From contig JAIYAE010000005.1 of assembly GCA_027489175.1 (NCBI GenBank), positions 62,001 to 126,000 on the forward strand: DNA of 64,000 bases. The letters run 5' to 3'. This document shows, piece by piece, positions 4,083 to 32,231 of this stretch. Each line of letters begins with the position of its first letter. The stretch's first letter is position 1. The notes under the pieces were generated by a model, which was given only the letters and a program-made list of their open reading frames with translations, ran no database searches and had not been told where the DNA came from. A program made the position numbers and the translations under genes. The stretch comes from Rhodobacter sp. (GTDB lineage Bacteria; Pseudomonadota; Alphaproteobacteria; Rhodobacterales; Rhodobacteraceae).

Positions 4083-5045
4083 TTAGCGCCGCAGCGCACC
4101 GGGGGGGTGGCCGAACCTTGCCTTGAAGGCGCGCGACAAGGTGGCCGGGCTGGAAAAGCCGGTGCGGAGCGCAATCTCGGCCAGAGGGTGCGCCGTGTCG
4201 GTCAGCATTCTGCGCGCGGCGGACAGGCGCAGGCCAAGGGCGTAGGCGCCGGGGGTCAGGCCAAGGGCCTGGCGGAAGAGGGATTCGAGGCGGCGGGGGG
4301 AGAGGTTCACCTGTGCCGCAAGGCTGGCGATGGGGGCGGGGGCGTCCAGCGTCGCCTCCATCAGCGCGACGGCGCGGGCGACGCGGGGGTCGAGGGCGGG
4401 GTCCTGGCCTTCGGGGGCGATCTGGGGTTCCTGGCCTTTGCGGACGGTGGCGAGGAAGCTGGCGGCGACTTGCCTTGCAAGGGCCGCGCCATGCCGGGCG
4501 CGGATCAGGTGGAGCATGAAATCGGTTGCCGCCGCGGCCCCGCCGATGGTGGCGCGGTTGCGGTCGATCACGTAGCGGTCAGGCAGGACGGTCGTTTCGG
4601 GGTGGGCGGCGGCGAGGTCCTCCAGATCCTCCCAATGCACGGTGGCGCGGTAGCCGGTCAGGAGGCCTGCGCGGGCCATGACCCAGGGGGCGGCGTCGAT
4701 CCCGGCAACAAGCTGAAAGCGCGGGGCGATGCGGCGGAGGTCACGGATCAGGGGGCGGGTGGCGACTTCGTTCAGGCGGTAGCCTGCGATGACGATCAGG
4801 GCGTCGGCGCCGGTGGCGGCGGTCAGGTCCCCCGTTGAGGGGAGTTCAATACCGCAGGTCAGGGGGACGGGCTGGCCGTCGGGTGTGACGACGCGCCAGC
4901 GGTAAGCCTCAGACCCGAGGTGACGGTTGGCGTTTCGGAGGGGGTCGAGGGCGGAGGCGACCTCAAGGATGGACGCCTGGGGCAGCACGAAGAAGGCGAT
5001 GGTCAGGGGGCCGGTCGCAGGGGCGAAGAGTGCGTTTTCCGTCAT
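4083..5045 (-). CDS. GlxA-family AraC-type regulator, probable carnitine-catabolism activator (CdhR-like)
   Basis: 320 residues. The N-terminal DJ-1/PfpI-like domain (about 15-185) acts as a ligand-sensing module and lacks an obvious catalytic triad. A C-terminal AraC-type double helix-turn-helix follows (about 215-318; ASLAAQVNLSPRRLESLFRQ, then FSSPATLSRAFKARFGHPPG). The start at 5045 is chosen because the domain begins immediately after it; longer readings would run into the divergent gene. It is transcribed away from the BKACE gene with 67 bases between starts. In Pseudomonas the GlxA-family CdhR activates carnitine genes; the same role here rests on gene order. Confidence 0.85.
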   Translation of the reverse strand: MTENALFAPATGPLTIAFFVLPQASILEVASALDPLRNANRHLGSEAYRWRVVTPDGQPVPLTCGIELPSTGDLTAATGADALIVIAGYRLNEVATRPLIRDLRRIAPRFQLVAGIDAAPWVMARAGLLTGYRATVHWEDLEDLAAAHPETTVLPDRYVIDRNRATIGGAAAATDFMLHLIRARHGAALARQVAASFLATVRKGQEPQIAPEGQDPALDPRVARAVALMEATLDAPAPIASLAAQVNLSPRRLESLFRQALGLTPGAYALGLRLSAARRMLTDTAHPLAEIALRTGFSSPATLSRAFKARFGHPPGALRR

Positions 5046-5112
5046 GGGGATTTCGTAAAGCGCAAAGCTTGGCTTCGCAAGCGGGGTATGGTGGGGGCAA
5101 AGGGAGATTGCC
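5046..5112. promoter_or_regulatory. Divergent control region between GlxA regulator and carnitine operon
   Basis: These 67 bases must hold both promoters. A GCTTG-N6-CAAGC inverted repeat lies at 5067-5082 and could be the regulator's operator. AAAGGGAGA just before 5113 is the ribosome site for the BKACE gene. Confidence 0.4.
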
Positions 5113-6024
5113 ATGCCGCTGACCATGAACCGTGAGGTTTTCATCACTTGTGCCGTGACGGGGTCCGGGGGGACGCAGGACCGCAGCCCCCATGTGCCAC
5201 GGTCCCCGAAGCAGATTGCCGAAAGCGCGATTGCGGCGGCGAAGGCGGGGGCGGCTGTGGTGCATTGCCATGTGAGGGACCCGGAAACGGGCAAGCCGTC
5301 GCGGAAGCTGGAATACTACCGCGAGGTGACGGAGCGGATCCGGGACAGCGACACGGATGTGGTCTTGAACCTGACGGCGGGGATGGGCGGCGACATCTAC
5401 TTTGAGGGGACCGAGGATATGGTCGCCGGGCCGCGCAGCGACATGGCAGGGGCAGAGGAGCGGGTGGCGCATGTGGTGGAGTGCCGGCCGGAAATCTGCA
5501 CGCTGGACTGCGGGACGATGAACTTCAACGAGGCTGACTATGTGATGGTCAACACCCCCGGCATGCTGCGCGACATGGCGCGGCGGATGACGGCGGCGGG
5601 GGTGCGGATCGAGATCGAGGCGTTTGACACCGGGCACCTGTGGCTGGCGAAGGAGCTGGTGAAAGAGGGGGTGATCCCCGATCCGGTTTTGGTGCAGCTG
5701 TGCATGGGGGTGCCGTGGGGCGCGCCGGATGATCTGAACACCTACATGGCGATGGTCAACAACGTGCCTGCGGGCTGGCACTGGTCGGCCTTTGCCCTTG
5801 GCCGTCACCAGATGCCCTATGTCGCGGCGGCGGTGATCGGTGGCGGCAATGTGCGGGTGGGGCTGGAGGATAATCTTTGGCTCGACAAGGGCGTGCTCGC
5901 GACCAACGCGCAGCTGGTGGAACGCGCCGCGACGATCATCGAAAACCTTGGCGCGCGGGTGATCACCCCGGCCGAAGTGCGGGCACGGCTGCGCTTGGAA
6001 AAGCGGGCGCCGGTGGCGAAGTGA
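5113..6024 (+). CDS. BKACE-family beta-keto acid cleavage enzyme, probably 3-dehydrocarnitine:acetyl-CoA cleavage
   Basis: A 303-residue DUF849/Kce-type TIM-barrel enzyme. These enzymes condense a beta-keto acid with acetyl-CoA and release acetoacetate. H51-C-H53 in [16 protein letters not shown] supplies two zinc ligands, and [10 protein letters not shown] is another family motif. The position beside carnitine dehydrogenase points to 3-dehydrocarnitine as substrate, giving betainyl-CoA plus acetoacetate; the thioesterase half of the gene at 7318 would then free glycine betaine. This is the role of Pseudomonas CdhC. It starts at ATG 5113, and ATG 5125 is possible. The stop overlaps the GTG of the next small gene. 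Confidence 0.85.
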
Positions 6025-6458
6025 GGGGATTGGCCGCCTGCCTTTGCCTGATCGGCCAGTCGGTTGCCGCCGAAACCTGCGCGACGCTGGGCAGCACAGG
6101 CCTCGCCTTGCCGATAAGTGAGGCCCATGAGGTGGTGGAGCAGGGCAAGGGCGTGGTCATCTTTTTCGAGCCAGAGGGCCGGTCGCCCCGGCTGATCGGG
6201 ATCCAGCGGGCCGAGGGGGTGGACCCATCTGGGGGTGTCGTCCTGGCGAACGGGATGACGCTTGACTATGAGGCACGGACCGAAGGCGCCGTTGGCAGCG
6301 GCGGGGCAGTCGCGGGGCTTGTGGGAATCCTCAGCGGCACGTCGGTCTTTGGGGTGACATGCTCCATGCAGGCTGAGGTCCCGGATGCCGAATGGTGCCT
6401 GCCGGTTCTGGGCGCGCTTCGTCCGGCTGCGGACGGCTGTGGCGGAGAAAAGGGCTGA
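6021..6458 (+). CDS. Small exported protein of unknown function
   Basis: 145 residues starting at GTG 6021, which overlaps the BKACE stop (GTGA), so translation is probably coupled. The N-terminus [18 protein letters not shown] looks like a signal peptide with cleavage after AVAA-type residues (SVAA|ET). The mature part has four Cys and a Gly/Val-rich centre that could be a short hydrophobic helix ([15 protein letters not shown]). I recognise no family. Its place inside the carnitine operon suggests an envelope role tied to that substrate, but nothing in the sequence shows this. A longer reading starting inside the BKACE gene is unlikely. Confidence 0.6.
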
Positions 6459-6506
6459 GATGGCAGGGAAAGCGCCAATCTTCGCTGGCAGCTTGGCGGC
6501 ACCGAG

Positions 6507-6866
6507 ATGATGGCCGCCGTGATTGCCGCCGTCTTTGCCCTGTCGGCCTACAACCAGGCTGCCGAGCCGCGATCCCGGCTTTGGCTTGGCGCTTTGCTGC
6601 TGGCGGCCTTGGCCTACGGCTATCTGGAATTTGCGATGCCGGCGGAGCTTTCAGGCAATGACGCGGCAGCGGACCGTCATCCGGATGCAATGAAGTTCAA
6701 GGCCGCAGGCTATGTCATGGTGGCCGCAGGACTGAGTTTTCTGGGCGCCTTGGCCGGGGGGTTGTTCCGGACGCGGGCCCCGGCGGCCAGGATCGGCGGT
6801 TATGCCTTTGTTGCCGCCTTTGTCGGGCTTTATGTCCTTGGCTTCTTTCTGGTGACGCCAAGATGA
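6507..6866 (+). CDS. Small integral membrane protein, unknown
   Basis: 119 residues with about four hydrophobic segments: residues 2-14, 24-38, 68-85 and 98-114. No motif I recognise. Start ATG 6507 or the adjacent ATG 6510. It lies between the exported protein and another membrane protein within the carnitine operon, all on the same strand. Confidence 0.55.
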   Translation: MMAAVIAAVFALSAYNQAAEPRSRLWLGALLLAALAYGYLEFAMPAELSGNDAAADRHPDAMKFKAAGYVMVAAGLSFLGALAGGLFRTRAPAARIGGYAFVAAFVGLYVLGFFLVTPR

Positions 6867-6950
6867 CCGCTTGGCCGATGGGATCAGCTGGCTCGGTGCG
6901 AGACAGGATGCGGGCGCGGCCCGATGGCGCCAGGCGTTGCGGGGACTTTA

Positions 6951-7286
6951 ATGGAAACACTTCTGACCCTCCTTTTGGTGATGCTGGGCCTGTACCTCGC
7001 ACCTCAGGCAGCGGTGAACCTGCGCTGGCTGGCCGCTGTGGCAGCGGTTCTGGCAGTGGCTGGGCTGGTCGCGTGGTTTGGCTGGGTGGCGCGGCAACCC
7101 TCCTCCATCGGGTCGGGGGTGGCGGGGTTGCTGGTCCTTCTGGCCGCAGGGGCGGCGGGGCTGGGCGTTCTGGTGCGGGCGCTGGTGCTGTGGCGGGGCT
7201 GGCACGGTGGGTGGACGGCAACGGCGGTGATACTTGGGGCGGGCCTGATCGGGGCGGCGCTGGTCTGGATTTTCGAGGCGGTGTGA
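6951..7286 (+). CDS. Small integral membrane protein, unknown
   Basis: 111 residues starting at METLLTLLLVML, preceded by GGGGAC; a start 27 bases upstream is possible but lacks a ribosome site. About four hydrophobic helices, with the conserved-looking loop FGWVARQPSSIGSG between helices two and three. No family recognised. It ends 31 bases before the carnitine dehydrogenase gene and is probably co-transcribed. Confidence 0.55.
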   Translation: METLLTLLLVMLGLYLAPQAAVNLRWLAAVAAVLAVAGLVAWFGWVARQPSSIGSGVAGLLVLLAAGAAGLGVLVRALVLWRGWHGGWTATAVILGAGLIGAALVWIFEAV

Positions 7287-7317
7287 CGCCCGACCACGGC
7301 ATGAGGGGATGACGAAC

Positions 7318-8775
7318 ATGGCACGGAAAGCGGCAATCATCGGGGGCGGGGTTATCGGCGGCGGTTGGGCCGCGCGGTTCTTGCTGAACGGCTGGGACGT
7401 GGCGGTGTTCGACCCGGACCCGGAGGCGGAGCGGAAAATCGGCGAGGTGCTGGCAAATGCGCGGGCGGCCCTTCCGGCGCTGTCGGATGTGCCGATGCCG
7501 GCCGAGGGGCGCTTGAGTTTTTCGGGCACCATGGCCGAGGCCGTGGAGGGCGCGGAATATGTGCAGGAGAGCGTGTCGGAGCGGATCGAGCTGAAGCACA
7601 AGGTCTATGCCCAGTTGCAGCAATCGAACCCCGGGGTGCTGATCGGGTCCTCAACCAGCGGCTTCAAGGCCAGCGACTTGCAGAAATCCAGCCCCGCGCC
7701 GGAAAACATCATCGTCGCTCACCCGTTCAACCCGGTTTATCTGCTGCCTTTGTCCGAGATTTCAGGCAGCCCAGCCAACCCGCCCGAGGTGGTGGAGCGG
7801 ACGGTGCAGATCATGAAGGACATCGGGATGTTCCCCCTGGTGATCCGCAAGGAGATTGACGCCTTCATCGGCAACCGGTTCCTTGAGGCGGTCTGGCGGG
7901 AGGCCCTGTGGATGCTGGTCGATGGCGTGGCCACGACTGGCGAGATTGACGATGCGATCCGCATGGGATTTGGCCTGCGCTGGGGGCAGATGGGCCTGTT
8001 CGAGACCTACCGCGTGGCCGGGGGCGAGGCCGGGATGCGCCACTTCATGGCCCAGTTCGGCCCGGCGCTGAAATGGCCCTGGACCAAGCTGATGGACGTG
8101 CCGGAGTTCAACGATGCGCTGGTGGACCTTGTGGCAGACCAGTCGGACGCGCAGTCGGGGGCCTATTCCATCCGCGAGTTGGAGCGGATCCGCGACCAGA
8201 ACCTGGTGGGGTTCCTGCGGTCGTTGAAGGACCGGAACTGGGGCGCGGGCAAGGTCTTGCGCGACCATGACGAGCGGCGGCGCGAGGCGTTCCATGCGGG
8301 CGAGGCGACGGGTGCGCCCCTGCAGATGGCCGAGTTGCAGGTTTTGCCATCCTGGATCGACTACAACGGGCATATGACGGAAAGCCGCTACCTGTTCTGC
8401 GCGTCGGAAGTGGCCGATGCCTTCCTGCGGCTGATCGGGGCGGACATGGATTATGTGGCTGGCGGCCACAGCTACTACACCGCCGAAAGCCACATCCTGC
8501 ACAAGGGCGAGGCGAAGCTGGGCGACCGGCTGACCGGGACGCTGCAGGTGATCCATGCCGATGCCAAGCGGCTGCACCACTTCATCACCTTGACGCGCGG
8601 CGAGACTGTTGTGGCGACCATCGAACAGATGTGCCTGCATGTGGACATGAAGGCAGGCAAGACTTGTCCGGCGCTGCCTGCGGTGCTGGAGAGGCTGATG
8701 CCGATTGCGGCGGCGCATGCAGGCCTGCCCCGGCCTGAGGGGCTCGGCCGCGCGATTGGTCAGGGGAGGGTGTGA
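7318..8775 (+). CDS. lcdH: L-carnitine dehydrogenase fused to betainyl-CoA thioesterase
   Basis: 485 residues in two parts. Residues 1-~315 are a 3-hydroxyacyl-CoA-dehydrogenase-type NAD enzyme (AAIIGGGVIGGGWAARFL nucleotide fold; AHPFNPVYLLPLSEI active-site region). It oxidises L-carnitine to 3-dehydrocarnitine. Residues ~335-485 are a hotdog thioesterase with WIDYNGHM at 346-353. Carnitine dehydrogenases of rhizobia and rhodobacters are known in this fused form; in Pseudomonas the two activities are separate (CdhA, CdhB). With the BKACE enzyme it converts carnitine to glycine betaine. I prefer ATG 7318 because GAGGGG (7303-7308) is correctly spaced for it; ATG 7309 would touch that site. 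Confidence 0.92.
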   Translation: MARKAAIIGGGVIGGGWAARFLLNGWDVAVFDPDPEAERKIGEVLANARAALPALSDVPMPAEGRLSFSGTMAEAVEGAEYVQESVSERIELKHKVYAQLQQSNPGVLIGSSTSGFKASDLQKSSPAPENIIVAHPFNPVYLLPLSEISGSPANPPEVVERTVQIMKDIGMFPLVIRKEIDAFIGNRFLEAVWREALWMLVDGVATTGEIDDAIRMGFGLRWGQMGLFETYRVAGGEAGMRHFMAQFGPALKWPWTKLMDVPEFNDALVDLVADQSDAQSGAYSIRELERIRDQNLVGFLRSLKDRNWGAGKVLRDHDERRREAFHAGEATGAPLQMAELQVLPSWIDYNGHMTESRYLFCASEVADAFLRLIGADMDYVAGGHSYYTAESHILHKGEAKLGDRLTGTLQVIHADAKRLHHFITLTRGETVVATIEQMCLHVDMKAGKTCPALPAVLERLMPIAAAHAGLPRPEGLGRAIGQGRV

Positions 8776-9938
8776 TGGATTTCGGACTGTCCGAAGAACA
8801 GCGGATGATCGTGGATACCACGCGCGCTTTCGTGGAGGCGGAGTTGTATCCGCACGAGGCCGAGGTGGAGCGGTCGGGCGTCCTGCCGCTGGAGCTGATC
8901 CGCGAGGTGCAGCAAAAGGCGATGGCGGCGGGGCTTTATGCCGCCAACATGCCGGTGGAGGTGGGGGGCGCGGGCCTCGATACGCTGTCCTGGCTTTTGT
9001 ATGAAAAGGAACTGGGGCGGGCGAATTACGCGCTCCATTGGGCCTGCGTGGCGCGGCCGTCGAACATCCTGCTCGCCGGGAATGCCGAGCAGCGGGAGCG
9101 GTATCTGATGCCGTGCATCCGGGGCGAGACCTGGGATTGCCTGGCGATGACCGAACCCGGCGCGGGGTCGGACTTGCGGGGGATGAAGGCCAGCGCCCGG
9201 CAGGACTGCGGCGATTGGGTGCTGAACGGGACGAAGCATTTCATCAGCCATGCCGACCTTGCGGGCTTTGCCATCGTGTTCATGGCGAGCGGTGAGGAGG
9301 ACACCCCGCGCGGGCCGAAAAAGCTGATCACGGCCTTCTTTGTGGACAAGGGGACGCCCGGGTTCACGGTGCGCGACGGCTACCGCAACGTCAGCCACCG
9401 CGGCTACACCAACGCGGTGCTGGAGTTCGATGACTGCCGGGTGCCGGCGGCGAATGTGCTGGGCGAAGTGCACAGGGGGTTTGAGGTCGCAAACTCCTGG
9501 CTGGGGGCGACGCGGTTGCAGGTGGCAAGCACCTGCCTTGGCCGGGCCGAGCGGGCTTTGGGACACGCGATCAGCTATGCGGCGGAGAGGAAGCAGTTCG
9601 GTCAAGCCATCGGCAAGTTCCAGGGGGTCAGCTTCAAGCTGGCCGACATGGCGATGGAGTTGAAGGCGGCGGAGTTGCTGACGCGAGAGGCCGCGTGGAA
9701 ATACGACCAGGGCACGGTGACCGAAGCCGACATGGCGATGGCCAAGCTGAAGGCGACCGAAGTGCTGGCGATGGTCGCGGATGAGGCGATCCAGATCCAC
9801 GGCGGCATGGGGCTGATGGAAGAACTGCCGCTGGAGCGCATCTGGCGCGATGCGCGGGTGGAGCGGATCTGGGAGGGGACGAGCGAGATCCAGCGCCACA
9901 TCATCAGCCGCGAATTGCTACGGGCAGTGGGTGGCTGA
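8775..9938 (+). CDS. Acyl-CoA dehydrogenase, probably gamma-butyrobetainyl-CoA dehydrogenase / CaiA-like
   Basis: 387 residues, a complete FAD acyl-CoA dehydrogenase. The FAD/substrate loop CLAMTEPGAGSDLRGMKAS is near residue 125. The C-terminal IWEGTSEIQRHIIS (365-378) carries E367 at the usual catalytic-base position of short-chain members. ATG 8775 overlaps the stop of the dehydrogenase-thioesterase and is preceded by AGGGGAGGG. Beside a CaiD-like hydratase and a CoA ligase, the likely reaction is gamma-butyrobetainyl-CoA to crotonobetainyl-CoA, or the reverse as in CaiA. Other short branched acyl-CoAs cannot be excluded from sequence alone. Confidence 0.85.
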   Translation: MDFGLSEEQRMIVDTTRAFVEAELYPHEAEVERSGVLPLELIREVQQKAMAAGLYAANMPVEVGGAGLDTLSWLLYEKELGRANYALHWACVARPSNILLAGNAEQRERYLMPCIRGETWDCLAMTEPGAGSDLRGMKASARQDCGDWVLNGTKHFISHADLAGFAIVFMASGEEDTPRGPKKLITAFFVDKGTPGFTVRDGYRNVSHRGYTNAVLEFDDCRVPAANVLGEVHRGFEVANSWLGATRLQVASTCLGRAERALGHAISYAAERKQFGQAIGKFQGVSFKLADMAMELKAAELLTREAAWKYDQGTVTEADMAMAKLKATEVLAMVADEAIQIHGGMGLMEELPLERIWRDARVERIWEGTSEIQRHIISRELLRAVGG

Positions 9939-9947
9939 AGCGTCGGA

Positions 9948-10006
9948 GCGAGGGGTTTCACACCCCTCGCGCTCCCCGTGGGATATTTGAGGACAGAAAA
10001 TGCAAG
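9948..10006 (+). repeat. Dispersed hairpin-tail element, copy A
   Basis: The 9-bp hairpin GCGAGGGGT-ttcac-ACCCCTCGC (9948-9970) is followed by the tail CTCCCCGTGGGATATTTG and GGACAGAAAATG. It is almost identical over about 45 bases to the copy at 39.99 kb. Confidence 0.8.
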
Positions 10007-10155
10007 CTTTCTACGCTTCTGATAACCGAGCGTTAAGGTTAATCGGCGAATCTGGCTGCACGGTACAGGCGGGGACGCCGATGACCGTGACGGGAAATGG
10101 CACCTCGCTTCGTTCATCGGGGCGAGGTGTTCTCATTTTCTGTCCCCAAATATCC
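9981..10155. repeat. Inverted pair of element tails inside the carnitine cluster
   Basis: GGATATTTGAGGACAGAAAATG at 9981-10002 (22 bases; quoted in part elsewhere) is matched by its reverse complement at 10134-10155 with one mismatch. The arms enclose 131 bases without a gene; inside is an 8-bp hairpin CACCTCGC/GCGAGGTG (10101-10129). Together with the outer hairpins the unit spans 9948-10184 and resembles a small non-autonomous insertion. Confidence 0.6.
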
Positions 10156-10184
10156 TCGGGGGTCCGGGGGCAGACAGCCCCCGG
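10134..10184 (-). repeat. Dispersed hairpin-tail element, copy B
   Basis: Reverse orientation: the hairpin CCGGGGGC-agaca-GCCCCCGG (10164-10184) with the tail on its left, CATTTTCTGTCCCCAAATAT. It faces copy A. Confidence 0.75.
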
Positions 10185-10211
10185 CGGGTTCAGCTGGGCC
10201 GGAGGCCGGAA

Positions 10212-12197
10212 ATGAGTCGCCTCGACCGTCTCCTCCGCCCGCGCCATATCGCTGTCCTTGGCGCTGGCTGGGCGCAGAACGTCATAGAGCAATGCCAGAA
10301 GATGGGCTTTCAGGGCCCGGTCTGGCCAGTGCATCCAACCAAGACCGAGATCGGGGGACTGAAAACCTATGCCAGCCTCGCCGATCTGCCCGAACCGCCC
10401 GATGCGACGTTCATCGGGGTCAACCGTTTCGCTACCATTGACGTCGTGGCCGAGCTTGCGGCGATGGGGGCGGGGGGAGCGATCTCATTCGCCTCTGGCT
10501 GGGAAGAGGCGGGGGAAGCGGGGTTGCAGGACCGGCTGGTCGCGGCGGCGGGGGAAATGCCGATCCTTGGGCCGAATTGCTATGGGGTGATCAACTACCT
10601 TGACGGCGCGCTCCTCTGGCCGGACCAGCATGGTGGGGTGCGGGTCGGAAGCGGGGTTGCGCTGGTCAGCCAGTCCTCCAACATCGTCATCAACATGGGG
10701 ATGCAGGCGCGGGGCCTGCCGGTGGCTTATGTCGCCTGTCTGGGGAACGCTGCCGTTGTCGGGCTGGCTGAATTGACCGGCGCGCTGCTGGATGATCCGC
10801 GCGTCACGGCTGTGGGCCTTTACATCGAGGGGATCGATGATGCGCCCGCCTTTGCCGCCCTGGCGGAAAAGGCGCGCCGCATGGGCAAAGGGGTGGTGGC
10901 GATCAAGTCGGGGAAGACGGAGCTGAGCCGGACGGCGGCGGCCAGCCACACCGCCTCGCTGGCCGGGGGCGGGGCGGCCTCCAGCGCTTTCTTGCGGCAG
11001 ATCGGGGTGGCGGAAGTGAATTCGCCCAGTGAGTTGATCGAAACCCTGAAGATCTTTCACGTCCACGGGCCGCAGATCGGGACGCGGATCTGTTCGCTCT
11101 CATGCTCCGGCGGTGAGGCGGGGCTGGTCGCCGATCTGGGCGAGCCTTATGGGATCGACTTCCCCCCGGTGCCGCAAGCCACCCATGACCGGCTGTTTGC
11201 CGTGCTGGGGGAAATCCCCACAATCTCCAACCCACTGGACTATCACACCTTCATCTGGGGTGATGGGCCGAAGACGACGGAAGTTTTCAGCGCCATGCTG
11301 GAGGCCTATGACGGAGGGCTTTACATCATCGATACGCCTCGGACCGACCGCTGCGATCCGTCCAGCTATCAGCCCGCGCTGGATGCTATTGTGGCGGCGC
11401 AAAAGGCGACGGGGAAGATCGCCTTCCCGGTCGCCTCGATGGTGGAGAACTTTGGTGAGCCTCGGGTGCAGGCAATGATGGCTGAGGGGGTGTGCACCTT
11501 GCTGGGGCTGGAGACGGCCTTGGCGGCGGTGAAGGCGGCGCAGACGCCGGCGGGGGTGGCGGGCTGGCGGCCGGTCCGGGCGCTGCCCGAGCGTGACACG
11601 CGGCTTTTGAGTGAGGCGGAGGGAAAGGCGCTGATCTCCTCGGCCGGGGTTCCGGTGCCGGGGTCGGTGACGGGGGCGACCTTGGCTGACCTCGACGTGT
11701 CGGGCTTGCGCCCGCCGTTCGCGGTCAAGGGCCTTGGGTTTGCGCACAAGACCGAAGCGGGGGCGGTGCGGTTGGGGGTGACCTCGCTGGACGGCCAGGC
11801 GCCGATGCCGGGGGCGACGGGTTATCTGGTGGAAGAGATGGTGACCGGGGCGGTGGCAGAGGTGCTGGTCGGCCTGCGGCGCGACCCGGTTTACGGTGTG
11901 ACGCTGACCTTGGGCCTGGGGGGCGTGACGGCGGAGGTGCTCGCGGATACGGTGACGCTGGTGCTGCCGGTGACCGAGGCGCAGGTGCTGGAGGCAGTGA
12001 AGCGCCTGCGGCTTTGGCCCTTGCTGGACGGCTACCGCGGGCGGCCCCGTGCGGACATGGCTGCGGTGGCGGGTATCGCGGTGCGGCTTGGGGCGCTGAT
12101 GCTGGGCGACGGAAGCCTTGAGGAGATTGAGATCAACCCGGTCATGGTGCGCGAAACGGGTGCCGTGGCGGTGGATGCATTGGTGAGGAGAGCATGA
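10212..12197 (+). CDS. ADP-forming acyl-CoA synthetase family protein (CoA ligase)
   Basis: 661 residues in the single-chain NDP-forming order: CoA-binding Rossmann domain (about 1-130), succinyl-CoA-ligase-like domains (about 140-430) with the phosphohistidine loop ASHTASLAGG (H246), and a C-terminal ATP-grasp domain (about 440-655; FAVKGLGFAHKTEAGAVRLG; EEIEINPVMV). ATG 10212 follows GGAGG. It would activate a carboxylic acid with CoA at the cost of ATP to ADP. Next to the acyl-CoA dehydrogenase and CaiD-like genes, gamma-butyrobetaine, crotonobetaine or carnitine is the likely substrate. The textbook CaiC ligase belongs to the unrelated AMP-forming family. The stop overlaps the next start by four bases. 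Confidence 0.85.
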   Translation: MSRLDRLLRPRHIAVLGAGWAQNVIEQCQKMGFQGPVWPVHPTKTEIGGLKTYASLADLPEPPDATFIGVNRFATIDVVAELAAMGAGGAISFASGWEEAGEAGLQDRLVAAAGEMPILGPNCYGVINYLDGALLWPDQHGGVRVGSGVALVSQSSNIVINMGMQARGLPVAYVACLGNAAVVGLAELTGALLDDPRVTAVGLYIEGIDDAPAFAALAEKARRMGKGVVAIKSGKTELSRTAAASHTASLAGGGAASSAFLRQIGVAEVNSPSELIETLKIFHVHGPQIGTRICSLSCSGGEAGLVADLGEPYGIDFPPVPQATHDRLFAVLGEIPTISNPLDYHTFIWGDGPKTTEVFSAMLEAYDGGLYIIDTPRTDRCDPSSYQPALDAIVAAQKATGKIAFPVASMVENFGEPRVQAMMAEGVCTLLGLETALAAVKAAQTPAGVAGWRPVRALPERDTRLLSEAEGKALISSAGVPVPGSVTGATLADLDVSGLRPPFAVKGLGFAHKTEAGAVRLGVTSLDGQAPMPGATGYLVEEMVTGAVAEVLVGLRRDPVYGVTLTLGLGGVTAEVLADTVTLVLPVTEAQVLEAVKRLRLWPLLDGYRGRPRADMAAVAGIAVRLGALMLGDGSLEEIEINPVMVRETGAVAVDALVRRA

Positions 12198-12991
12198 TGG
12201 AAATGCGGACCGAAGGCCCGATCAAGACCCGGCGGGAAGGGGCTATCCTTGAGGTCACGCTGGACGCGCCCAAGGCCAATGCGATCAGCCTGAAAACCAG
12301 CCGGATCATGGGATTGGTGTTCCGCGACTTTCGAGATGATGACAGCCTTCGCGTCTGCATCATCCGCGCGGCGGGGGAGAAGTTCTTCTGCCCCGGCTGG
12401 GACCTGAAGGCCGCGGCCGAGGGCGATGCGGTGGATGGCGACTATGGGGTTGGGGGCTTTGCGGGGCTGCAGGAGCTGCCGAACCTCAACAAGCCGGTGA
12501 TCGCAGCGGTGCAGGGCATCTGCTGTGGCGGGGGGGTGGAGTTTGCGCTCAGCGCTGACCTGATCCTGTGTTCGACGAATGCGACCTTCGCGTTGCCGGA
12601 GATCCGGTCGGGCACGGTGGCGGACGCGGCCAGCATCAAGCTGCCAAAGCGGATCCCTTATCATGTGGCGATGGACCTTCTCTTGACCGGGCGCTGGTTT
12701 GACGCCGAGGAAGCGCATCGCTGGGGGATCGTGAAGGAAATCTGCTCGCCCGAGGAGTTGCTGCCGAAGGCGTGGGACCTGGCGCGCCTGCTGGAATCTG
12801 GCCCGCCGCTTGTCTACGCCGCGATCAAGGAAGTGGTGCGCGAGGCTGAAAACATGCGCTTTCAGGACGCGCTGAACCGGATCACCAAGCGGCAGATGCC
12901 GACGGTGGACCGGCTGTATTCCAGCGAGGATCAGCTGGAGGGGGCGAAGGCCTTTGCCGAAAAGCGCGATCCGGTGTGGAAGGGGCGCTAG
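12194..12991 (+). CDS. caiD: CaiD-like crotonobetainyl-CoA hydratase / carnitinyl-CoA dehydratase
   Basis: A 265-residue crotonase-fold enzyme. GWDLKAAAEGDA, GGFAGLQEL and the C-terminal AFAEKRDPVWKGR closely resemble E. coli CaiD as I remember it. Two acidic residues, E116 (GGGVE) and E136 (ALPEIRSG), sit 20 apart like CaiD's catalytic pair. It would interconvert crotonobetainyl-CoA and carnitinyl-CoA. It starts at ATG 12194 (or 12197), overlapping the ligase stop, so the two are translationally coupled. It ends tail-to-tail with the DHFR-like gene (stops overlap). A thioesterase or transferase to free carnitine from CoA is not separately encoded here. Confidence 0.85.
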   Translation: MMEMRTEGPIKTRREGAILEVTLDAPKANAISLKTSRIMGLVFRDFRDDDSLRVCIIRAAGEKFFCPGWDLKAAAEGDAVDGDYGVGGFAGLQELPNLNKPVIAAVQGICCGGGVEFALSADLILCSTNATFALPEIRSGTVADAASIKLPKRIPYHVAMDLLLTGRWFDAEEAHRWGIVKEICSPEELLPKAWDLARLLESGPPLVYAAIKEVVREAENMRFQDALNRITKRQMPTVDRLYSSEDQLEGAKAFAEKRDPVWKGR

Positions 12992-17280: not shown

Positions 17281-17308
17281 AAGGGCGGGTGCCCCGCCCG
17301 CCCTTATT
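17281..17308. terminator. Bidirectional terminator between ridA-like gene and betC
   Basis: AAGGGCGGG (17281-17289) pairs with CCCGCCCTT (17297-17305), with a 7-base loop. It overlaps the betC stop codon at 17304-17306. Confidence 0.6.
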
Positions 17309-18809
17309 CCCCCCTTGGGAAGCGTTTGCTTTCTTCCAGCACGTTCAGGTCCATGTGGTTGCGCATGTAGCGTTCCGATGCGGCGCGCAGGGGTTGGTGG
17401 TCCCAAGGGTAGTAGGCACCGTTCCGCAAAGCCTCATACACCACCCAGCGGCGGGCCTGGCTTTCGCGGACGGCGGCGTCATAGGCGGCGAGGTCCCAAC
17501 GCTGGTCAGCGAGGGCGCGGAGGTGCGCAAGGGTTTCGGCGGCGGTGGGGTCGGCGGCGAGGTTGTGGCGTTCCTGCGGATCGGCCGCCAGGTTGAAAAG
17601 CTGTTCGGGGTCGGCCGGGCAGCGGATGTATTTCCAATCGCCTTCACGCAGGGCGACCATTGGGGTGATCGTGCCTTCGGCGGCGTATTCCATTGCGACG
17701 GGGGGGCGTGGCGCGCCGTTTGCCACGGGGATCAGGTTGACGCCTTCGGTCCAGGGGGCGACCTCTTCCATCGAAATCCCGGCCAATGCCGCAAGGGTGG
17801 GGGCAAGGTCGATCGAGGAGACCGGCGTGTTGATGCGGCCTGCCGGCATGTCAGGCGCGGCGATCATCAGCGGCACGCGGGCGGAGCCTTCGAAGAAGTT
17901 CATCTTGAACCACAGGCCCTTTTCTCCAAGCATCTCGCCATGGTCGGAGAGGAAGACGATGTGGGCATCCTGCCGGGTGGCGTCCAGCACTGCGAGGATC
18001 TCGCCGATCTTGTCGTCGACATAGCTGATATTGGCGAAGTAGGCCTGTTTGGCGCGGCGGATGTGGTCGGGGGTGATCTCCATGCCGCGCCAGTCGCAGG
18101 CGTCCATCAGGCGCTGGGAATGGGGGTCCATGTCGTCGTAGGCGAGGGGTTCGGGCGGCTCACATTCGGGGGCGCCGTCGTAGAGGTCCCAGTATTTGCG
18201 GCGGGCGACGAAGGGATCATGCGGGTGGGTGAAGCTGACGGTCAGGCACCAGGGGCGGGGGTCTGCGCCGCGTGAGAGGTCATAGAGTTTCTGGACAGCC
18301 TGATGGGCGACGTCATCGTCATATTCCAGCTGGTTGGTGATCTCGGCCACGCCCGCGCCGGTGACGGAGCCGAGGTTGTGATACCACCAGTCGATCCGTT
18401 CGCCCGGCTTGCGGTAGTCTGGGGTCCAGCCGAAATCGGCGGGGTAGATGTCGGTGGTCAGGCGTTCTTCAAACCCGTGCAGCTGGTCTGGGCCGACAAA
18501 ATGCATCTTGCCACTGAGGGCGGTCTGGTATCCGGCGCGGCGCAGGTGGTGGGCGTAGGTGGGGATGGCCGACGCAAACTCGGCCGCGTTGTCATAAACG
18601 CCGGTCCGGCTGGGCAGTTGGCCTGACATGAAACTGGCACGGGCGGGTGCGCAAAGCGGCGAGGCGGTGTAGCAATTGGCGAAGCGGGCCGACCGGGCGG
18701 CCAGCGCGCGCAGGTTTGGCGTGTGCAGGAAAGCGGCAGGTCCGTCGGGAAACAGCGTGCCATTCAGCTGGTCCACCATGATGACAAGGATATTTGGGCG
18801 GGGGGTCAT
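17304..18809 (-). CDS. betC: Choline-sulfatase
   Basis: A 501-residue type-I sulfatase that hydrolyses choline-O-sulfate to choline and sulfate. The formylglycine motif C53-A-P-A-R57 is intact. NILVIMVDQLNG supplies N-terminal metal ligands, GKMHFVGPDQLHGFEERLTT follows, and the C-terminal choline-sulfatase tail ESQARRWVVYEALRNGAYYP is closely like Sinorhizobium BetC, as is the ending PRGE. No signal peptide, so it acts in the cytoplasm and the sulfate ester must be imported. It is not linked to betA, betB or betI as in rhizobia; the only choline-related neighbour is the GMC oxidoreductase. Confidence 0.95.
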   Translation of the reverse strand: MTPRPNILVIMVDQLNGTLFPDGPAAFLHTPNLRALAARSARFANCYTASPLCAPARASFMSGQLPSRTGVYDNAAEFASAIPTYAHHLRRAGYQTALSGKMHFVGPDQLHGFEERLTTDIYPADFGWTPDYRKPGERIDWWYHNLGSVTGAGVAEITNQLEYDDDVAHQAVQKLYDLSRGADPRPWCLTVSFTHPHDPFVARRKYWDLYDGAPECEPPEPLAYDDMDPHSQRLMDACDWRGMEITPDHIRRAKQAYFANISYVDDKIGEILAVLDATRQDAHIVFLSDHGEMLGEKGLWFKMNFFEGSARVPLMIAAPDMPAGRINTPVSSIDLAPTLAALAGISMEEVAPWTEGVNLIPVANGAPRPPVAMEYAAEGTITPMVALREGDWKYIRCPADPEQLFNLAADPQERHNLAADPTAAETLAHLRALADQRWDLAAYDAAVRESQARRWVVYEALRNGAYYPWDHQPLRAASERYMRNHMDLNVLEESKRFPRGE

Positions 18810-18929: not shown

Positions 18930-20885
18930 ATGCCGACAGTGAAGGAAGTGCCGGACCAGCGGATCGCCATGCCGGATGGCGTCCTGTTGTCGGCGCGGCT
19001 TTGGCGGCCCGTGGGCAGTGGCCGGGTGCCCGCGATTGTCGAGATGATCCCCTACCGCAAGCGCGATGGCACGGCGGCCCGGGATGAGGCGATTCACCCT
19101 TGGATCGCCGCGCAGGGTTATGCCTGCCTGCGGGTCGATCTGCGCGGAACCGGCGACAGCGATGGGCTTCTGACCGACGAATACACGCCTCAGGAGCTTG
19201 AGGACGCCTGCGCGGTCATCGCGTGGGTCGCAGCGCAGGGATGGTGCACGGGTGCTGTGGGGATGATGGGCAAAAGTTGGGGGGCGTTCAACGCGCTGCA
19301 GGTGGCGGCGCTGCAGCCCCCGGCCCTGAAGGCAGTGATCGCGGTTTGCGGCACGGTGGACCGGTTTGGCGAGGATATCCACTTCAAGGGTGGCTGCCTG
19401 TTGGCCGAGAATTTCGGTTGGGCGTCGGTGATGCTGTCCTATTCCTCACGCCCGGCGGACCCGGTCTTGCGGGCCGATTGGCGCGAGGATTGGCTGGCCC
19501 GGCTGGAGGCGAACCCCTGGCTTGCCCCCCGCTGGGCTGGGCACCAGACCCGCGACGGCTATTGGCGGCACGGGTCGGTTTGCGAGGACTGGTCAAAGCT
19601 GACGGTGCCGATCCTTGCCATCGGCGGTTGGGCGGATGGCTACATGAACATGGTCGGTGCCCTGGTCCGCAACGCGGCGGGGCCGGTGAAGGGGATCGTC
19701 GGGCCTTGGGTGCATCTTTACCCGCATATGGCGGTTCCCAGCCCCCGCATTGGCTTTCTGACCGAAAGCTTGCGCTGGTGGGACCGCTGGTTGAAGGACG
19801 AGGAGACGGGGGTGGAGGCTGACCCTGCCTTGCGCCTCTTCCTGCAGGAGGCGGACGCACCCGACCCCTCGGCGCAAAGCCGGGCGGGCCGTTGGATCGG
19901 CCTGCCTGACCGACCTGCCCTTGCCACGCTGACGCTGGCGCTGGGGCCGGGCGGCCTTCGGCCCGAGGTGCGGTTGCCGGCGCACATCGCTACTGCCCAG
20001 ACGCTGGGCGCTGCGGCGGGGGAATATTTCCCGACGGGGGACCATGCCGAGATGGCGGGCGATCAGTCCGCCGACGACGCGTTGTCGCTGTGCTTTGACG
20101 GGTTGCCGGTGACAAAGCCGATGGCGTTGGTCGGGCGGGCCAATCTGCGGCTGACGCTGACCTCAGACCAGCCGACGGGCTTTGTGGTGGCGCGACTGTG
20201 CGACGTGGCGCCGGATGGCACATCGACCCGGATCGCGCATGGGATGCTGAACCTGTGCCACCGCGCGGGCAGTGCCGACCCTGTGCTGCTGGAGCCGGGC
20301 CAGCCGATGCTGGTGCTGTTGACGCTGGACGCGATGGCGCATCGGCTGGCACCGGGGCATCGGCTGCGGCTGGCGCTGTCAAACAGCTATTGGCCGTTCC
20401 TCTGGCCTTCGGCCCGCGCTGGGGTGCTGATGCTGTCGGCGGGTGCCGTGGGCCTGCCGATCCTGCCCGAACCCGCGCCGGACTGGCAGCCGCCGCCGCC
20501 CGAACCCCTGCCCGCCCCCCGCCAGCGCATGCTGCGTCCCGGGGCGTGGTCACGCCAGACGGTGGTTGACCCGGACACTGGCCGCCAGACCCTGACGATC
20601 ACCGAAGACAGCGGCGACACGGTCGAACCGCATGGGTTGACCCATGGCGAGACAATGGAAGAGGTCTGGCAGATCACCCCTGACGACCCCCTGTCTGCTG
20701 TAGGCTCCATCCGTTGGGAACAGCGCCTGTCGCGGGGCGATTGGCGGGTGAGGACACTGGTGGAAACCGAAATGACCGCCACGGAAACCGATCTGCGGAT
20801 GCAGGCCCGGCTGACGGCTTGGGAGGGGGACGTGCAGATTTTCCAGCGCGACTGGGATGATCTGGTGCCGCGCCGCTATGTCTGA
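18930..20885 (+). CDS. CocE/NonD family alpha/beta hydrolase (S15-type)
   Basis: 651 residues. A peptidase-S15/CocE catalytic domain comes first (about 1-300), with the nucleophile elbow GMMGKSWGAFNALQ, then a C-terminal jelly-roll X-Pro dipeptidyl-peptidase domain (about 320-560). Residues 560-651 form an extra C-terminal region found in longer bacterial homologues. Members cleave esters or amides; cocaine esterase and glutaryl-7-ACA acylase are relatives, so the natural substrate is open. ATG 18930 is chosen as the start of the conserved MPDGVLLSARLWRP region. Divergent from betC, 120 bases apart. Confidence 0.85.
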   Translation: MPTVKEVPDQRIAMPDGVLLSARLWRPVGSGRVPAIVEMIPYRKRDGTAARDEAIHPWIAAQGYACLRVDLRGTGDSDGLLTDEYTPQELEDACAVIAWVAAQGWCTGAVGMMGKSWGAFNALQVAALQPPALKAVIAVCGTVDRFGEDIHFKGGCLLAENFGWASVMLSYSSRPADPVLRADWREDWLARLEANPWLAPRWAGHQTRDGYWRHGSVCEDWSKLTVPILAIGGWADGYMNMVGALVRNAAGPVKGIVGPWVHLYPHMAVPSPRIGFLTESLRWWDRWLKDEETGVEADPALRLFLQEADAPDPSAQSRAGRWIGLPDRPALATLTLALGPGGLRPEVRLPAHIATAQTLGAAAGEYFPTGDHAEMAGDQSADDALSLCFDGLPVTKPMALVGRANLRLTLTSDQPTGFVVARLCDVAPDGTSTRIAHGMLNLCHRAGSADPVLLEPGQPMLVLLTLDAMAHRLAPGHRLRLALSNSYWPFLWPSARAGVLMLSAGAVGLPILPEPAPDWQPPPPEPLPAPRQRMLRPGAWSRQTVVDPDTGRQTLTITEDSGDTVEPHGLTHGETMEEVWQITPDDPLSAVGSIRWEQRLSRGDWRVRTLVETEMTATETDLRMQARLTAWEGDVQIFQRDWDDLVPRRYV

Positions 20886-23481: not shown

Positions 23482-23535
23482 GGCTTTCCCCCCCTTCGGC
23501 CCTGCTTTAGGGTGAGCCTGCAACAGGGGGGCGGG

Positions 23536-26500
23536 ATGGCCTGGGAATTCTGGATCGACCGGGGCGGCACCTTTACCGATGTCGTCGGCCGCGCCCCTGA
23601 CGGGCGGCTGGTCACGGCCAAGCTCTTGTCGGAAAACCCCGAACGCTATGCCGATGCGGCCGTGCAAGGCATCCGGGATTGCCTTGGGCTGTCGGTTGGC
23701 CAGCCAATCCCCGATGGCGCGATTGCGGCGGTCAAGATGGGCACCACGGTTGCCACCAATGCCCTCTTGGAGCGGAAGGGCGAGCGGGTTCTGCTGCTGG
23801 TGACCGAGGGCTTCGCTGACCTTCTGCGTATCGGCACCCAGGCGCGACCGGCGCTGTTTGACCTAAACATCCGCCGCCCAGACCTGCTTTATGAGCGGGT
23901 GGTGGAGGTTCCGGGGCGGCTGGATGCCGAGGGGGCGGAGGTACGCCCGCTGGATGAGGGGGCGTTGCAGGCGGCGCTGGCTGCGGCGCGGGCCGAGGGG
24001 ATTGCCGCAGTTGCCGTGGCGCTGATGCATGGCCATGTGAACCCCGCGCACGAGGCGCGCGTGGGGGTGCTGGCGGCTGAAGCGGGGTTTGCGCAGGTGT
24101 CACTATCGCATCAGGTCTCGCGTTTGGCCAAGATCGTGCCGCGCGGGGATACGACGGTGGTCGACGCTTACCTCTCGCCCATCCTGCGGCGCTATGTGGC
24201 GCAGGTTGAAGGGGCGCTGGACATGGGCCGCGCGACGGGGCGATTGCTGTTCATGCAATCGAATGGTGGGTTGACCGAGGCGGGGCGCTTTCAGGGCAAG
24301 GACGCCATCCTGTCCGGCCCTGCCGGGGGTATTGTCGGCATGGTGCAGACTGCTCAGGCGGCGGGGTTTGACCGGCTGATCGGGTTCGACATGGGCGGGA
24401 CCTCGACCGATGTCAGCCACTACGCCGGTGTTTATGAACGATCGTTCGAGACGGAGGTGGCGGGTGTCCGCATGCGGGCGCCGATGATGGACATCCACAC
24501 GGTGGCGGCAGGCGGCGGGTCGATCTGCAGCTTTCGCGACGGGCGCTTTCAGGTCGGGCCGGAAAGTGCTGGCGCAAACCCGGGGCCGGCCAGCTATCGC
24601 CGGGGCGGGCCGCTGACGATCACCGATTGCAACGTGATGCTGGGGCGGCTGTCGCCGGAGCATTTCCCCGCCGTCTTCGGTCCCGGTGGGGACCAACCTT
24701 TGGACGCTGACGTAGTGCGGGCAAAGTTCGCGGCCTTGGCGGCTCAAGTAGCTGCCGTGACCGGCAGGCTGGACCCGCCAGAGGTGGTGGCCGAAGGGTT
24801 CCTGCGCATTGCCATCGACAATATGGCCAATGCGATCAAGAAGATAAGCGTCCAGCGCGGGCATGATGTGACGGGTTACACCCTGCAATGCTTTGGCGGA
24901 GCAGGGGGGCAGCATGCCTGTGGCGTGGCCGATGCCTTGGGGATGCGCTCAGTCTTCCTGCATCCGCAGGCGGGGGTGCTGTCGGCCTTCGGCATGGGCC
25001 TTGCCGACCTGCGCGCGTTGCGCGAGGTGCAGTTTGATGCGCCGGTGACAGAGCCATCTGCCGCCAGCCGGATTGCGGCACTTGGGGCTGAAGCGGTGGC
25101 GGAGTTGGAGGCGCAGGGGATCACGGACCCCCGCCTGATCCTGACTGCGCATCTGCGTTACGAAGGCTCACACCAGCCTTTGCCGGTACCCTTCGGAACC
25201 GAGGCCGCGATGCGTCTGGCCTTCGCTGAAGCGCATCAGGCGCGGTTCGGCTTCACCTCGCCCGAGCGGGCCGTCCTGTTCGAAATGCTGTCGGCCGAGG
25301 CTGTCGGAGGGGGCGGGGCGTTGCCGAGGATGAACGTGCATTCACATTCCGGCCAGCCCGTGGCCACCCTGCGCCTTTGGGCGGGCGGCTGGCGGGACGT
25401 GCCGCTTTATCGGCGGGAGGACTGCGGCACCGCCACCCGCATTTCCGGCCCCGCTGTCATAGCTGAGGCGACCGGCACCGTCATCATCGAGCCCGGCTGG
25501 CAGGCCGAGGTCGATGCCCAGGCCAATCTGATCTTGACCCGGGTTGAAACAATGGCCCGACCCGCCGCCGCTGGGACCAAGGCCGATCCGGTGCTGCTGG
25601 AGGTTTTCAACAACCTTTTCATGTCAGTTGCCGATCAGATGGGCGCCACGCTGGCCAACACCGCCTGGTCGGTGAACATCAAGGAACGCTTCGACTTTTC
25701 CTGTGCCATCTTTGATGCGGCAGGCGACCTGGTGGCCAATGCCCCGCATGTGCCGGTGCATCTGGGGTCTATGTCGCATGCGGTGAAAACCGTCATCGCA
25801 GCGGTTGGTGCCACGGCGCGGGAGGGGGATGCGTGGATGCTGAACTCACCCTGGAACGGCGGCACGCATTTGCCGGATGTGACTGTAATCACACCGGTTT
25901 TCGTGGGCGGTCAGGCGGCGTTTTGGCTGGGGTCGCGCGGGCACCATGCCGATATCGGCGGGCGGACCCCAGGTTCTGGCCCGCCGGACAGCACGACGAT
26001 TGAGGAAGAGGGGGTGGTGATCGACCTTTTCCCTCTCGTGGTCGAAGGTCAACTGCGCGAGGGCGAGACGCGCGCCCTTCTCGCCTCGGGCCGCTGGCCC
26101 TGCCGGTCGATTGACCAGAACATGGCAGACCTCAAGGCCCAGATCGCCGCGAATGAGACGGGGCGGCGGGAACTTCTTGGCGTCGTGGCCCGGCACGGCG
26201 CAGAGACGGTGGCGACCTATATGGCGCATGTCCAGAAGAACGCCGAAGAATGCGTGCGCGCGGTAATCGACCGGATACATGACGGTGCGTTCACTTATCC
26301 GATGGATATCGGCACGACCATTCAGGTCGAGGTTACCGTGGACCATGCCAAACGGTCAGCGGTGATTGATTTCTCCGGCACCAGCCCGCAGCACCGTGGC
26401 AATTACAATGCCCCCCAGGCGGTAACGCGGGCGGTGGTGCTGTATGTCTTCCGCACGCTGGTGGGCAAGCCGATCCCGCTGAATGAGGGCTGCCTTGCGC

Positions 26501-27102
26501 CGCTGACGATCATCGTGCCGGAGGGGACCATGCTGAACCCGCGCGCCCTGGCGGCGGTGATCGCGGGGAATACCGAGGTCAGCCAATCCGCCTGCAACGC
26601 GCTTTATGGCGCCTTGGGAGTGGTCGCTGCAGCGCAGGGCACGATGAACAACTTCATCTGGGGCAATGACCGGTTCCAGAACTATGAAACCATTGCCGGG
26701 GGCACGGGGGCCGGACCGGGGTTCGCGGGCTGTGATGCGGTGCAAAGCCACATGACCAACACGCGGATGACTGACCCGGAGGTGCTGGAAAAGCGCTTTC
26801 CCGTTCGGTTGGATTCCTTCGGAATCCGTCAGAACTCGGGTGGCAAGGGACAGTGGCCCGGTGGCAACGGCGCTATCCGCCGCTTGCGGTTTCTGGAGCC
26901 GGTGACCGTCACCACCCTGTGCGGCAGCCGGAAGGTCGCGCCATTTGGCGTGCTGGGCGGCGGGCCGGGGGCGGTGGGGGAAAACCTTGTCCACTGGCCT
27001 GACGGGCGGGTGGAAATCCTGCAAGGCAATGATGAGCGTGACCTGCCCGCCGGTGCGGTCTTTGAAATGCGCACCCCGGGCGGTGGTGGCTGGGGCGTTT
27101 GA
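23536..27102 (+). CDS. Fused HyuA-HyuB hydantoinase / 5-oxoprolinase family protein
   Basis: 1188 residues. HyuA half at 1-~680: N-terminal [19 protein letters not shown], then the actin-like ATP site [16 protein letters not shown] near 285. HyuB half at ~690-1188: [40 protein letters not shown], and C-terminal [12 protein letters not shown]. The A-B order and length match ATP-dependent 5-oxoprolinases, which open 5-oxoproline to glutamate in the cytoplasm. Hydantoin or N-methylhydantoin (a creatinine product) are alternative substrates. ATG 23536 follows GGGGGGCGGG. Next to a DUF533 gene without functional link. Confidence 0.88.
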
Positions 27103-27167
27103 TCCCGGTCATTGCGCTGTGCCTTTTGGGTGCTCATATGACCGCCAGACAGCCAAAGGAGGCGACA

Positions 27168-27869: not shown

Positions 27870-27871
27870 CC

Positions 27872-30017: not shown

Positions 30018-30028
30018 AGGACTTTGCC

Positions 30029-30982: not shown

Positions 30983-30986
30983 CATC

Positions 30987-32150: not shown

Positions 32151-32153
32151 CCT

Positions 32154-32206: not shown

Positions 32207-32231
32207 CTGCGCCTGCAACAGGAGCCCACCC

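Follow-up and report, generated by a model that had tools for sequence, protein, structure and literature searches.

Gene content of the cluster

We analysed a 64,000-nucleotide stretch of a Rhodobacter sp. genome (contig JAIYAE010000005.1, positions 62,001 to 126,000), referred to below as the window, within which all coordinates are given. Positions 4083-12991 hold six main genes whose products very probably break down gamma-butyrobetaine, crotonobetaine and carnitine aerobically to glycine betaine. These genes encode a regulator, a BKACE-family enzyme, a carnitine 3-dehydrogenase fused to a thioesterase (CDH), an acyl-CoA dehydrogenase (ACAD), an ADP-forming acyl-CoA ligase (LIG) and a CaiD-type hydratase (ECH) (Table 1). 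An earlier annotation made from the letters alone (the sequence-only reading) had named all six at these positions, and family matches confirmed them. The host genome is 94% complete and is distributed over 39 contigs.

CDH was the sole cluster gene with a function fixed by an NCBIfam cut-off (741.9 bits against the curated NF005716 cut-off of 592). It is predicted to oxidise carnitine to 3-dehydrocarnitine and to convert betainyl-CoA to glycine betaine. The substrate proposed for BKACE follows from the neighbouring CDH and the published pathway. The top NCBIfam match of the regulator was GbdR (194.7 bits, under the cut-off of 480); its start was set at the in-frame ATG at 5045, and the open reading frame (ORF) extends to a TTG at 5294. 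CDH and ACAD overlap by one base, and LIG and ECH by four.

Table 1. Features of the carnitine cluster and its surroundings in the window
Feature	Position	Strand	Evidence or remark
GlxA/GbdR-type AraC-family regulator	4083-5045	-	DJ-1/PfpI and HTH_18 (AraC-type HTH) domains
BKACE, predicted 3-dehydrocarnitine:acetyl-CoA cleavage enzyme (products betainyl-CoA and acetoacetate)	5113-6024	+	PF05853, E 6.8e-102
Carnitine 3-dehydrogenase fused to 4HBT-type thioesterase (CDH)	7309-8775	+	NF005716; PF02737, PF00725, PF13279
Acyl-CoA dehydrogenase (ACAD), predicted gamma-butyrobetainyl-CoA dehydrogenase	8775-9938	+	Domain and family matches, alignment
ACAD-LIG gap, 273 bases	9939-10211		Inverted arms 9974-10002 and 10134-10162
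Small-RNA-like element	10058-10131	+	Two-stem 5' domain 10058-10099, terminator-like hairpin 10099-10131
ADP-forming (NDP-forming) acyl-CoA ligase (LIG), predicted gamma-butyrobetaine/crotonobetaine:CoA ligase	10212-12197	+	CoA_binding_2, Succ_CoA_lig, ATP-grasp_5
CaiD-type crotonobetainyl-CoA hydratase (ECH)	12194-12991	+	54% identity to E. coli CaiD
Small secreted-type protein, Tsi3-like (type VI immunity) domain	6021-6458	+	GTG start overlaps the BKACE stop
Small membrane-protein-like ORF	6507-6866	+	No Pfam family
Small membrane-protein-like ORF	6951-7286	+	No Pfam family
Choline-sulfatase	17304-18809	-	TIGR03417, 864 bits (cut-off 433)
CocE/NonD (S15) family hydrolase	18930-20885	+	TIGR00976, 242 bits (cut-off 66.3); start chosen by alignment

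Three small ORFs lie between BKACE and CDH and were absent from the earlier gene list. No relatives of them were found in the fetched loci of other genomes.

Linkage and co-occurrence of the genes

We surveyed 149 Rhodobacteraceae genomes, one per genus and including that of the window, accepting CDH at E up to 1e-100 and LIG at E up to 1e-60. CDH was present in 112 genomes, LIG in 103 and both in 98 (Fisher odds ratio 45, p 1.5e-16, uncorrected for relatedness). In 38 of these 98 genera, the window's genome included, LIG and CDH lie within 12 kb of each other on one contig. At class level (190 genomes; E up to 1e-80 for LIG and up to 1e-30 for CDH-like proteins), LIG was found in 19 genomes and CDH-like proteins in 52, many of the latter without a thioesterase.

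Twenty loci were fetched from the 38 CDH-linked ones and another 20 from the remaining 60 LIG loci. ECH adjoins LIG in all 40 and ACAD does so in 39 (L084 has no ACAD); ACAD-LIG-ECH is a unit, found joined to the carnitine genes or apart from them. BKACE and CDH were both present in every linked locus, and the order BKACE-CDH-ACAD-LIG-ECH was found in 16 of the 20, while ACAD-LIG-ECH came first in the remaining four. Among the 20 unlinked loci a regulator of the same type stood beside 11, and BKACE was present in two. Two loci lacking CDH (L091 and L094) carry an ACAD that is 84-86% identical to that of the window and a LIG that is only 47-48% identical, which suggests gene replacement inside the module.

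A query with a Sinorhizobium ligase provided a rhizobial set consisting of the best 80 loci (more exist), nearly all titled Rhizobiaceae or Rhizobiales. The exact order regulator-BKACE-CDH-ACAD-LIG-ECH was found in 70 of them, Sinorhizobium medicae (L125) among these; S. meliloti was not among the best 80. Six of the other ten end near a contig edge, two have an extra ACAD, one has no detected regulator and one has CDH split in two. As the gene order recurs in 16 of the 20 linked family loci and in 70 of these 80, the grouping is not due to chance. Identity between the window proteins and their S. medicae counterparts is 39-78%. A locus titled as a Pantoea metagenome-assembled genome (L191) holds a rhizobial-type cluster with CDH in two pieces, and is probably a mislabelled bin.

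The nearest named record was a plasmid of Pseudorhodobacter turbinis, which shares the gene order (LIG 69% and CDH 74% identical). The order of the window was also found in Rhizobium etli, R. leguminosarum, R. tropici, Neorhizobium and Sinorhizobium sp. K101, while ACAD-LIG-ECH is placed first in Thioclava, Palleronia and Paracoccus methylovorus. Among plasmid records, LIG was present in 158 and CDH in 214, mainly from Rhizobium. The Neorhizobium cluster adjoins genes annotated as a dioxygenase alpha subunit and a dimethylglycine dehydrogenase, which fit glycine betaine as the product. On the megaplasmid of Ruegeria pomeroyi DSS-3, ACAD, LIG and a hydratase annotated as carnitinyl-CoA dehydratase stand without CDH or BKACE nearby; a DJ-1/PfpI-family gene is inserted there between LIG and the hydratase (L102, 11017-11622). 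In Agrobacterium fabrum C58, BKACE and CDH are interleaved with a transporter, and no LIG was present in the 19 kb read.

Comparison of ACAD and ECH with the E. coli Cai proteins

The E. coli K-12 cai proteins were aligned with the cluster proteins. ECH shared 54% identity with CaiD across 257 alignment columns, and the two crotonase glutamate positions were invariant in 131 of 131 aligned ECHs and in CaiD. The top NCBIfam match of ECH was crotonobetainyl-CoA hydratase (NF002936, 306.8 bits, runner-up 208.4), under the cut-off of 500; our claim is that ECH probably works like CaiD, rather than that it belongs strictly to NF002936.

ACAD was 33% identical to CaiA and scored 183.7 bits with NF002885, for which the cut-off is 540. 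Residue 367 (numbered in the ATG-started protein) occupies the position that we take to be that of the usual catalytic base of acyl-CoA dehydrogenases. It is glutamate in the window; in an alignment of 126 sequences (the window and 125 from 131 searched loci) it is aspartate in 111 and glutamate in 15, and it is glycine in CaiA. Because an acidic residue is present at this position in all 126 sequences and glycine in CaiA, ACAD appears to be made for oxidation, and "CaiA-like" would hold only as a functional analogy. On the low identity, the score far below the cut-off and the different residue, we rejected ACAD as a CaiA orthologue. The sequence-only reading had described the pair as CaiD-like and CaiA-like; the former stands, and the latter does not stand as orthology. 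LIG, CDH and BKACE matched none of the K-12 cai proteins, and the identification of LIG as CaiC was discarded, there being no similarity.

The ligase LIG and its relation to DddX

The best-scoring solved chain for LIG was DddX, an ATP-dependent dimethylsulfoniopropionate (DMSP) lyase (7cm9, E 1.5e-64). We aligned DddX with 131 LIGs (the window and 130 of the 131 searched loci; A. fabrum has none). The phospho-histidine His292, the onium-binding Trp391 and the ATP-grasp histidine of DddX were kept in all 131, as was an aromatic residue at position 435 (W in 114, F in 9, Y in 8). At the position of Glu432, the proposed lyase base of DddX (PMC8163506, which writes D432 once), none of the 131 has glutamate: A is found in 71, P in 29 (the window among them), G in 18, D in 5, S in 3 and five further letters once each. 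The residue just before 432 is aspartate in 101 and glutamate in 6 of the LIGs, which leaves some doubt on the alignment in this region. Identity between LIG and DddX was 182 of 638 aligned residues (28.5%), below the 30% rule of PMC8163506, which used BLASTP. LIG thus shares with DddX the ADP-forming acyl-CoA synthetase family, the phospho-histidine and the cation-pi aromatics, but the lyase base is missing. On the simplest reading, LIG would be a ligase that activates a trimethylammonium acid without cleaving it.

A small-RNA-like element between ACAD and LIG

The ACAD-LIG gap holds an element whose core of 42 bases folds into two stems and is followed by a terminator-like hairpin (z-scores of -4.2 to -6.9 in five copies). 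Terminator-like sites in the whole region numbered 5, against 6.0 expected from shuffles. A covariance model was trained on 22 copies, 16 chromosomal and 6 from plasmids. The element pairs in 94.5% of the cells, a value reached by none of 500 shuffles, while slid versions reached at most 56%. Both sides change in four of the ten base pairs, and the outermost pair fails in 11 of the 22 copies.

The element scored at least 58.8 bits in 14 of 62 sources, once in each and always in the ACAD-LIG gap (all 14 belong to the training set); it lies on the gene strand in 11 and on the opposite strand in three. Two further matches were weak (E 0.15 and 0.35), and the covariance-model scan found the element in none of the 80 rhizobial loci. 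Outside the cluster it was absent from 182 kb of the host genome (ten stretches) and from the rest of the window. Twenty plasmid records contain related stretches of 32-47 bases; six of these copies were fetched, of which four have replication or mobilisation genes close by, one has a transposase nearby and one is in unannotated sequence. No copies were found in viral contigs (exact-pattern scan) or in a phage search. No Rfam 15 family fits the element, the best match (26.2 bits against a gathering score of 58.6) lying outside the core, and a literature text search with three stretches of its sequence returned no paper. We take the element to be a putative small RNA gene.

Transport, downstream steps and neighbouring genes

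Within the cluster we saw no transporter gene, a gap that the sequence-only reading had remarked on; its description of the set as complete holds for the catabolic enzymes and not beyond them. The amino-acid-type ABC genes upstream (a binding protein at the first bases of the window and a permease at 595-1392) were rejected as the missing transporter because nothing related to them occurs in the loci fetched from other genomes and both match amino-acid transport families (below cut-off). A peptide-type ABC transporter lies near the cluster in 67 of the best 80 rhizobial loci, and its binding protein in 4 of 20 linked and 0 of 20 unlinked family loci; it is a frequent rhizobial companion and not a defining feature of this cluster type. 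The host genome has three OpuAC matches, one of them weak and one a choline-binding protein over the cut-off beside a choline dehydrogenase. It also encodes four members of the MTTB family, each scoring over the cut-off; they could remove a methyl group from glycine betaine, the role of MtgB in R. pomeroyi (PMC12478193).

The CocE/NonD hydrolase recurs close to the cluster in 25 loci fetched from other genomes, among them 20 of 80 rhizobial and 3 of 20 linked family loci (0 of 20 unlinked ones), and is 44% identical to the hydrolase beside the R. leguminosarum cluster. It was found in 71 of the 149 genomes, mostly away from CDH when compared by eye. Speculatively, it might hydrolyse acylcarnitines or other esters. 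The choline-sulfatase, which 4 of 20 linked loci likewise have close to the cluster, is a neighbouring quaternary-amine gene outside the pathway. A second BKACE is encoded in the host genome away from the cluster (contig C31, 175583-176392). Genes further along the window (23512-42300) include those for a 5-oxoprolinase-like protein and for an OHCU decarboxylase that carries a fused polysaccharide deacetylase domain, as well as a PALP-family enzyme gene with a D-serine dehydratase-like gene after it.

Discussion

The gene identities, linkage, co-occurrence and residue conservation established in this analysis are consistent with the following route, in which the substrates are those predicted for the window's organism. 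LIG would use ATP, through a phospho-histidine, to form gamma-butyrobetainyl-CoA (or crotonobetainyl-CoA). ACAD would oxidise gamma-butyrobetainyl-CoA to crotonobetainyl-CoA, with electrons presumably passing to the electron transfer flavoprotein, and ECH would add water to give L-carnitinyl-CoA. After the release of carnitine, CDH would oxidise it to 3-dehydrocarnitine, and BKACE would use acetyl-CoA to turn this into acetoacetate and betainyl-CoA, from which the thioesterase domain of CDH would yield glycine betaine. That a CoA-dependent branch feeds gamma-butyrobetaine or crotonobetaine into carnitine oxidation was already the view of the sequence-only reading, and it is the best reading here in view of the CaiD-type hydratase, the way ACAD, LIG and ECH stay linked, the presence of LIG and CDH in the same genomes, the pathway of strain HK4 and the ligase of S. 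meliloti.

Strain HK4, placed between Agrobacterium and Rhizobium, is reported to use both gamma-butyrobetaine and crotonobetaine (PMC3546705); in this strain gamma-butyrobetaine is thioesterified, dehydrogenated and hydrated to L-carnitine, which is degraded in turn (PMC3546705, PMC2131755). The cluster resembles the HK4 system of Lonza in the CoA thioester, the alpha-beta dehydrogenation, the hydration to L-carnitine, the carnitine dehydrogenase and the full degradation, a comparison made by published pathway and not by sequence. As in clusters of the HK4/Sinorhizobium type, CDH has a fused thioesterase, BKACE is beside CDH, and ACAD, LIG and ECH follow the Sinorhizobium order. The Lonza patents reportedly use the gene names bcoA/B, bcoC and bcoD. 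BcoAB of S. meliloti, which A. Perret had provided as a gift, served to prepare gamma-butyrobetainyl-CoA from ATP, CoA and gamma-butyrobetaine (PMC8364193), and we infer that this ligase corresponds to LIG. The S. meliloti dehydrogenase oxidises carnitine and converts betainyl-CoA to glycine betaine (Bazire 2019, as cited in PMC12482172). S. meliloti offers both the dual-role dehydrogenase and the gamma-butyrobetaine:CoA ligase, and S. medicae the identical six-gene order; compared with Sinorhizobium, the window adds the three small ORFs and the small-RNA-like element and is without a detected peptide-type ABC transporter. In R. pomeroyi grown on N-osmolytes the carnitine proteins CdhABC were raised (PMC12478193).

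Other systems share only part of this layout. The E. coli cai operon has a hydratase of the same type as ECH, but the cluster has no relative of CaiB, CaiC, CaiT or CaiE, its ACAD is a distant match to CaiA, and it carries oxidative downstream enzymes. The bbu cluster of Emergencia timonensis likewise begins by making gamma-butyrobetainyl-CoA, but it is anaerobic and has CoA transferases and a trimethylamine-lyase (PMC8364193). The Arctic SAR11 carnitine island has CDH and BKACE, while gamma-butyrobetaine dioxygenase genes replace the CoA route (PMC12421898). Gamma-butyrobetaine dioxygenase (BBOX, TIGR02409) had no match in the host genome, in a search in which the positive control likewise matched nowhere.

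Several observations weigh against the CoA-dependent route to glycine betaine. ACAD, LIG and ECH fall under the cut-off of every NCBIfam family among the matches listed (for ECH, the best 25 of 72), and the top match of ACAD was acryloyl-CoA reductase (294 bits, cut-off 640). LIG occurs without CDH in 5 of 103 genomes (one of these LIGs only a 37% relative) and CDH without LIG in 14 of 112; in 60 of the 98 genera having both, the two genes are not within 12 kb, to which fragmented contigs contribute. No BCCT transporter was found in the host genome, in a search whose control matched in 4 of 14 genomes, nor did the peptide-type ABC binding protein have a match there, in a search without a positive control. 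BcoAB is equated with LIG on the strength of its name and of the sister species S. medicae, S. meliloti being outside the best 80 loci.

The match of ACAD to acryloyl-CoA reductase, the standing of DddX as the top solved chain for LIG and the occurrence of DddX in Alphaproteobacteria (PMC8163506) would together suit a DMSP-CoA module, in which LIG is a DddX-type DMSP lyase, ACAD reduces acryloyl-CoA and ECH hydrates it. We consider this very unlikely and rejected it on residue conservation in LIG, where Glu432 is absent from all 131 sequences though His292, Trp391 and the 435 aromatic are kept; the identity under the 30% rule, the closeness of ECH to CaiD and the co-occurrence of LIG with CDH also oppose it. 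The acidic residue one position before 432 in 107 of the 131 LIGs, together with the single mention of D432, qualifies this argument. Scarcely more credible to us is that the upper module serves crotonobetaine or D-carnitine (racemisation through CoA esters) and not the oxidation of gamma-butyrobetaine. LIG and a CaiD-type hydratase would suffice to hydrate crotonobetaine, and the same enzymes would act on crotonobetaine anyway; but ACAD is retained in 39 of 40 loci, and its acidic catalytic-position residue, glycine in CaiA, points to the oxidation of a saturated substrate.

Within the preferred route from gamma-butyrobetaine through carnitine, the release of carnitine from CoA needs an enzyme. 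No separate one was recognised within the cluster, in agreement with the sequence-only reading, or as a recurrent neighbour of the CDH-less loci (among families shared by several loci). ADP-forming ligases are reversible, as is known for archaeal enzymes, so LIG could release carnitine and regain ATP. This reversal (carnitinyl-CoA + ADP + Pi to carnitine + ATP + CoA) would most likely be the releasing step, and the CoA loop would then run without net ATP cost. In HK13, a dehydrogenase-less mutant obtained by frameshift mutagenesis, L-carnitine was reported in quantitative yield (PMC3546705, PMC2131755), which implies that its release is independent of carnitine dehydrogenase activity. The competing account, to which we give somewhat less than an even chance, is that LIG works only forwards and that carnitinyl-CoA is cleaved by the thioesterase domain present in CDH or by a CoA-transferase encoded elsewhere. 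HK13 would speak against the thioesterase if its frameshift lies in a fused CDH gene, since this domain may then have been lost as well, favouring LIG. As for a transferase, the genome encodes two type III CoA-transferases of full length, which share 27% and 24% identity with CaiB, and one partial match, but they sit on other contigs. The CoA-transferase family scan covered one of the two full-length proteins, L112 (read from L205), which matched CoA:oxalate CoA-transferase at 389.5 bits against 119.3 for L-carnitine CoA-transferase, both under the cut-off. We tentatively propose, as a possible but on balance doubtful arrangement, that one onium-acid-specific LIG loads gamma-butyrobetaine and unloads carnitine, replacing CaiC and CaiB at no net ATP cost, and that in relatives of this organism a putative small RNA gene between ACAD and LIG, which has no Rfam family, may tune the expression of both.

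The pathway was described long ago for soil rhizobia, and its contrast with enterobacteria is not new either, since older publications already report the HK4 route; the window adds the arrangement of the pathway in another genome. The gene set is widespread and mostly ordinary, and what moderate interest it has comes from the ligase and the small-RNA-like element. Many bacteria use carnitine and gamma-butyrobetaine, both methylated nitrogen compounds, and the ACAD-LIG-ECH unit would allow the use of gamma-butyrobetaine, beyond carnitine alone, to be predicted from genomes. In such a setting, a protein annotated as "acetate--CoA ligase family protein" probably acts on quaternary ammonium acids. 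The kinship of LIG with DddX offers a testable explanation for the choice between ligation and cleavage within one family, and a reversible ligase, if the idea is true, would close the release gap in the cluster.

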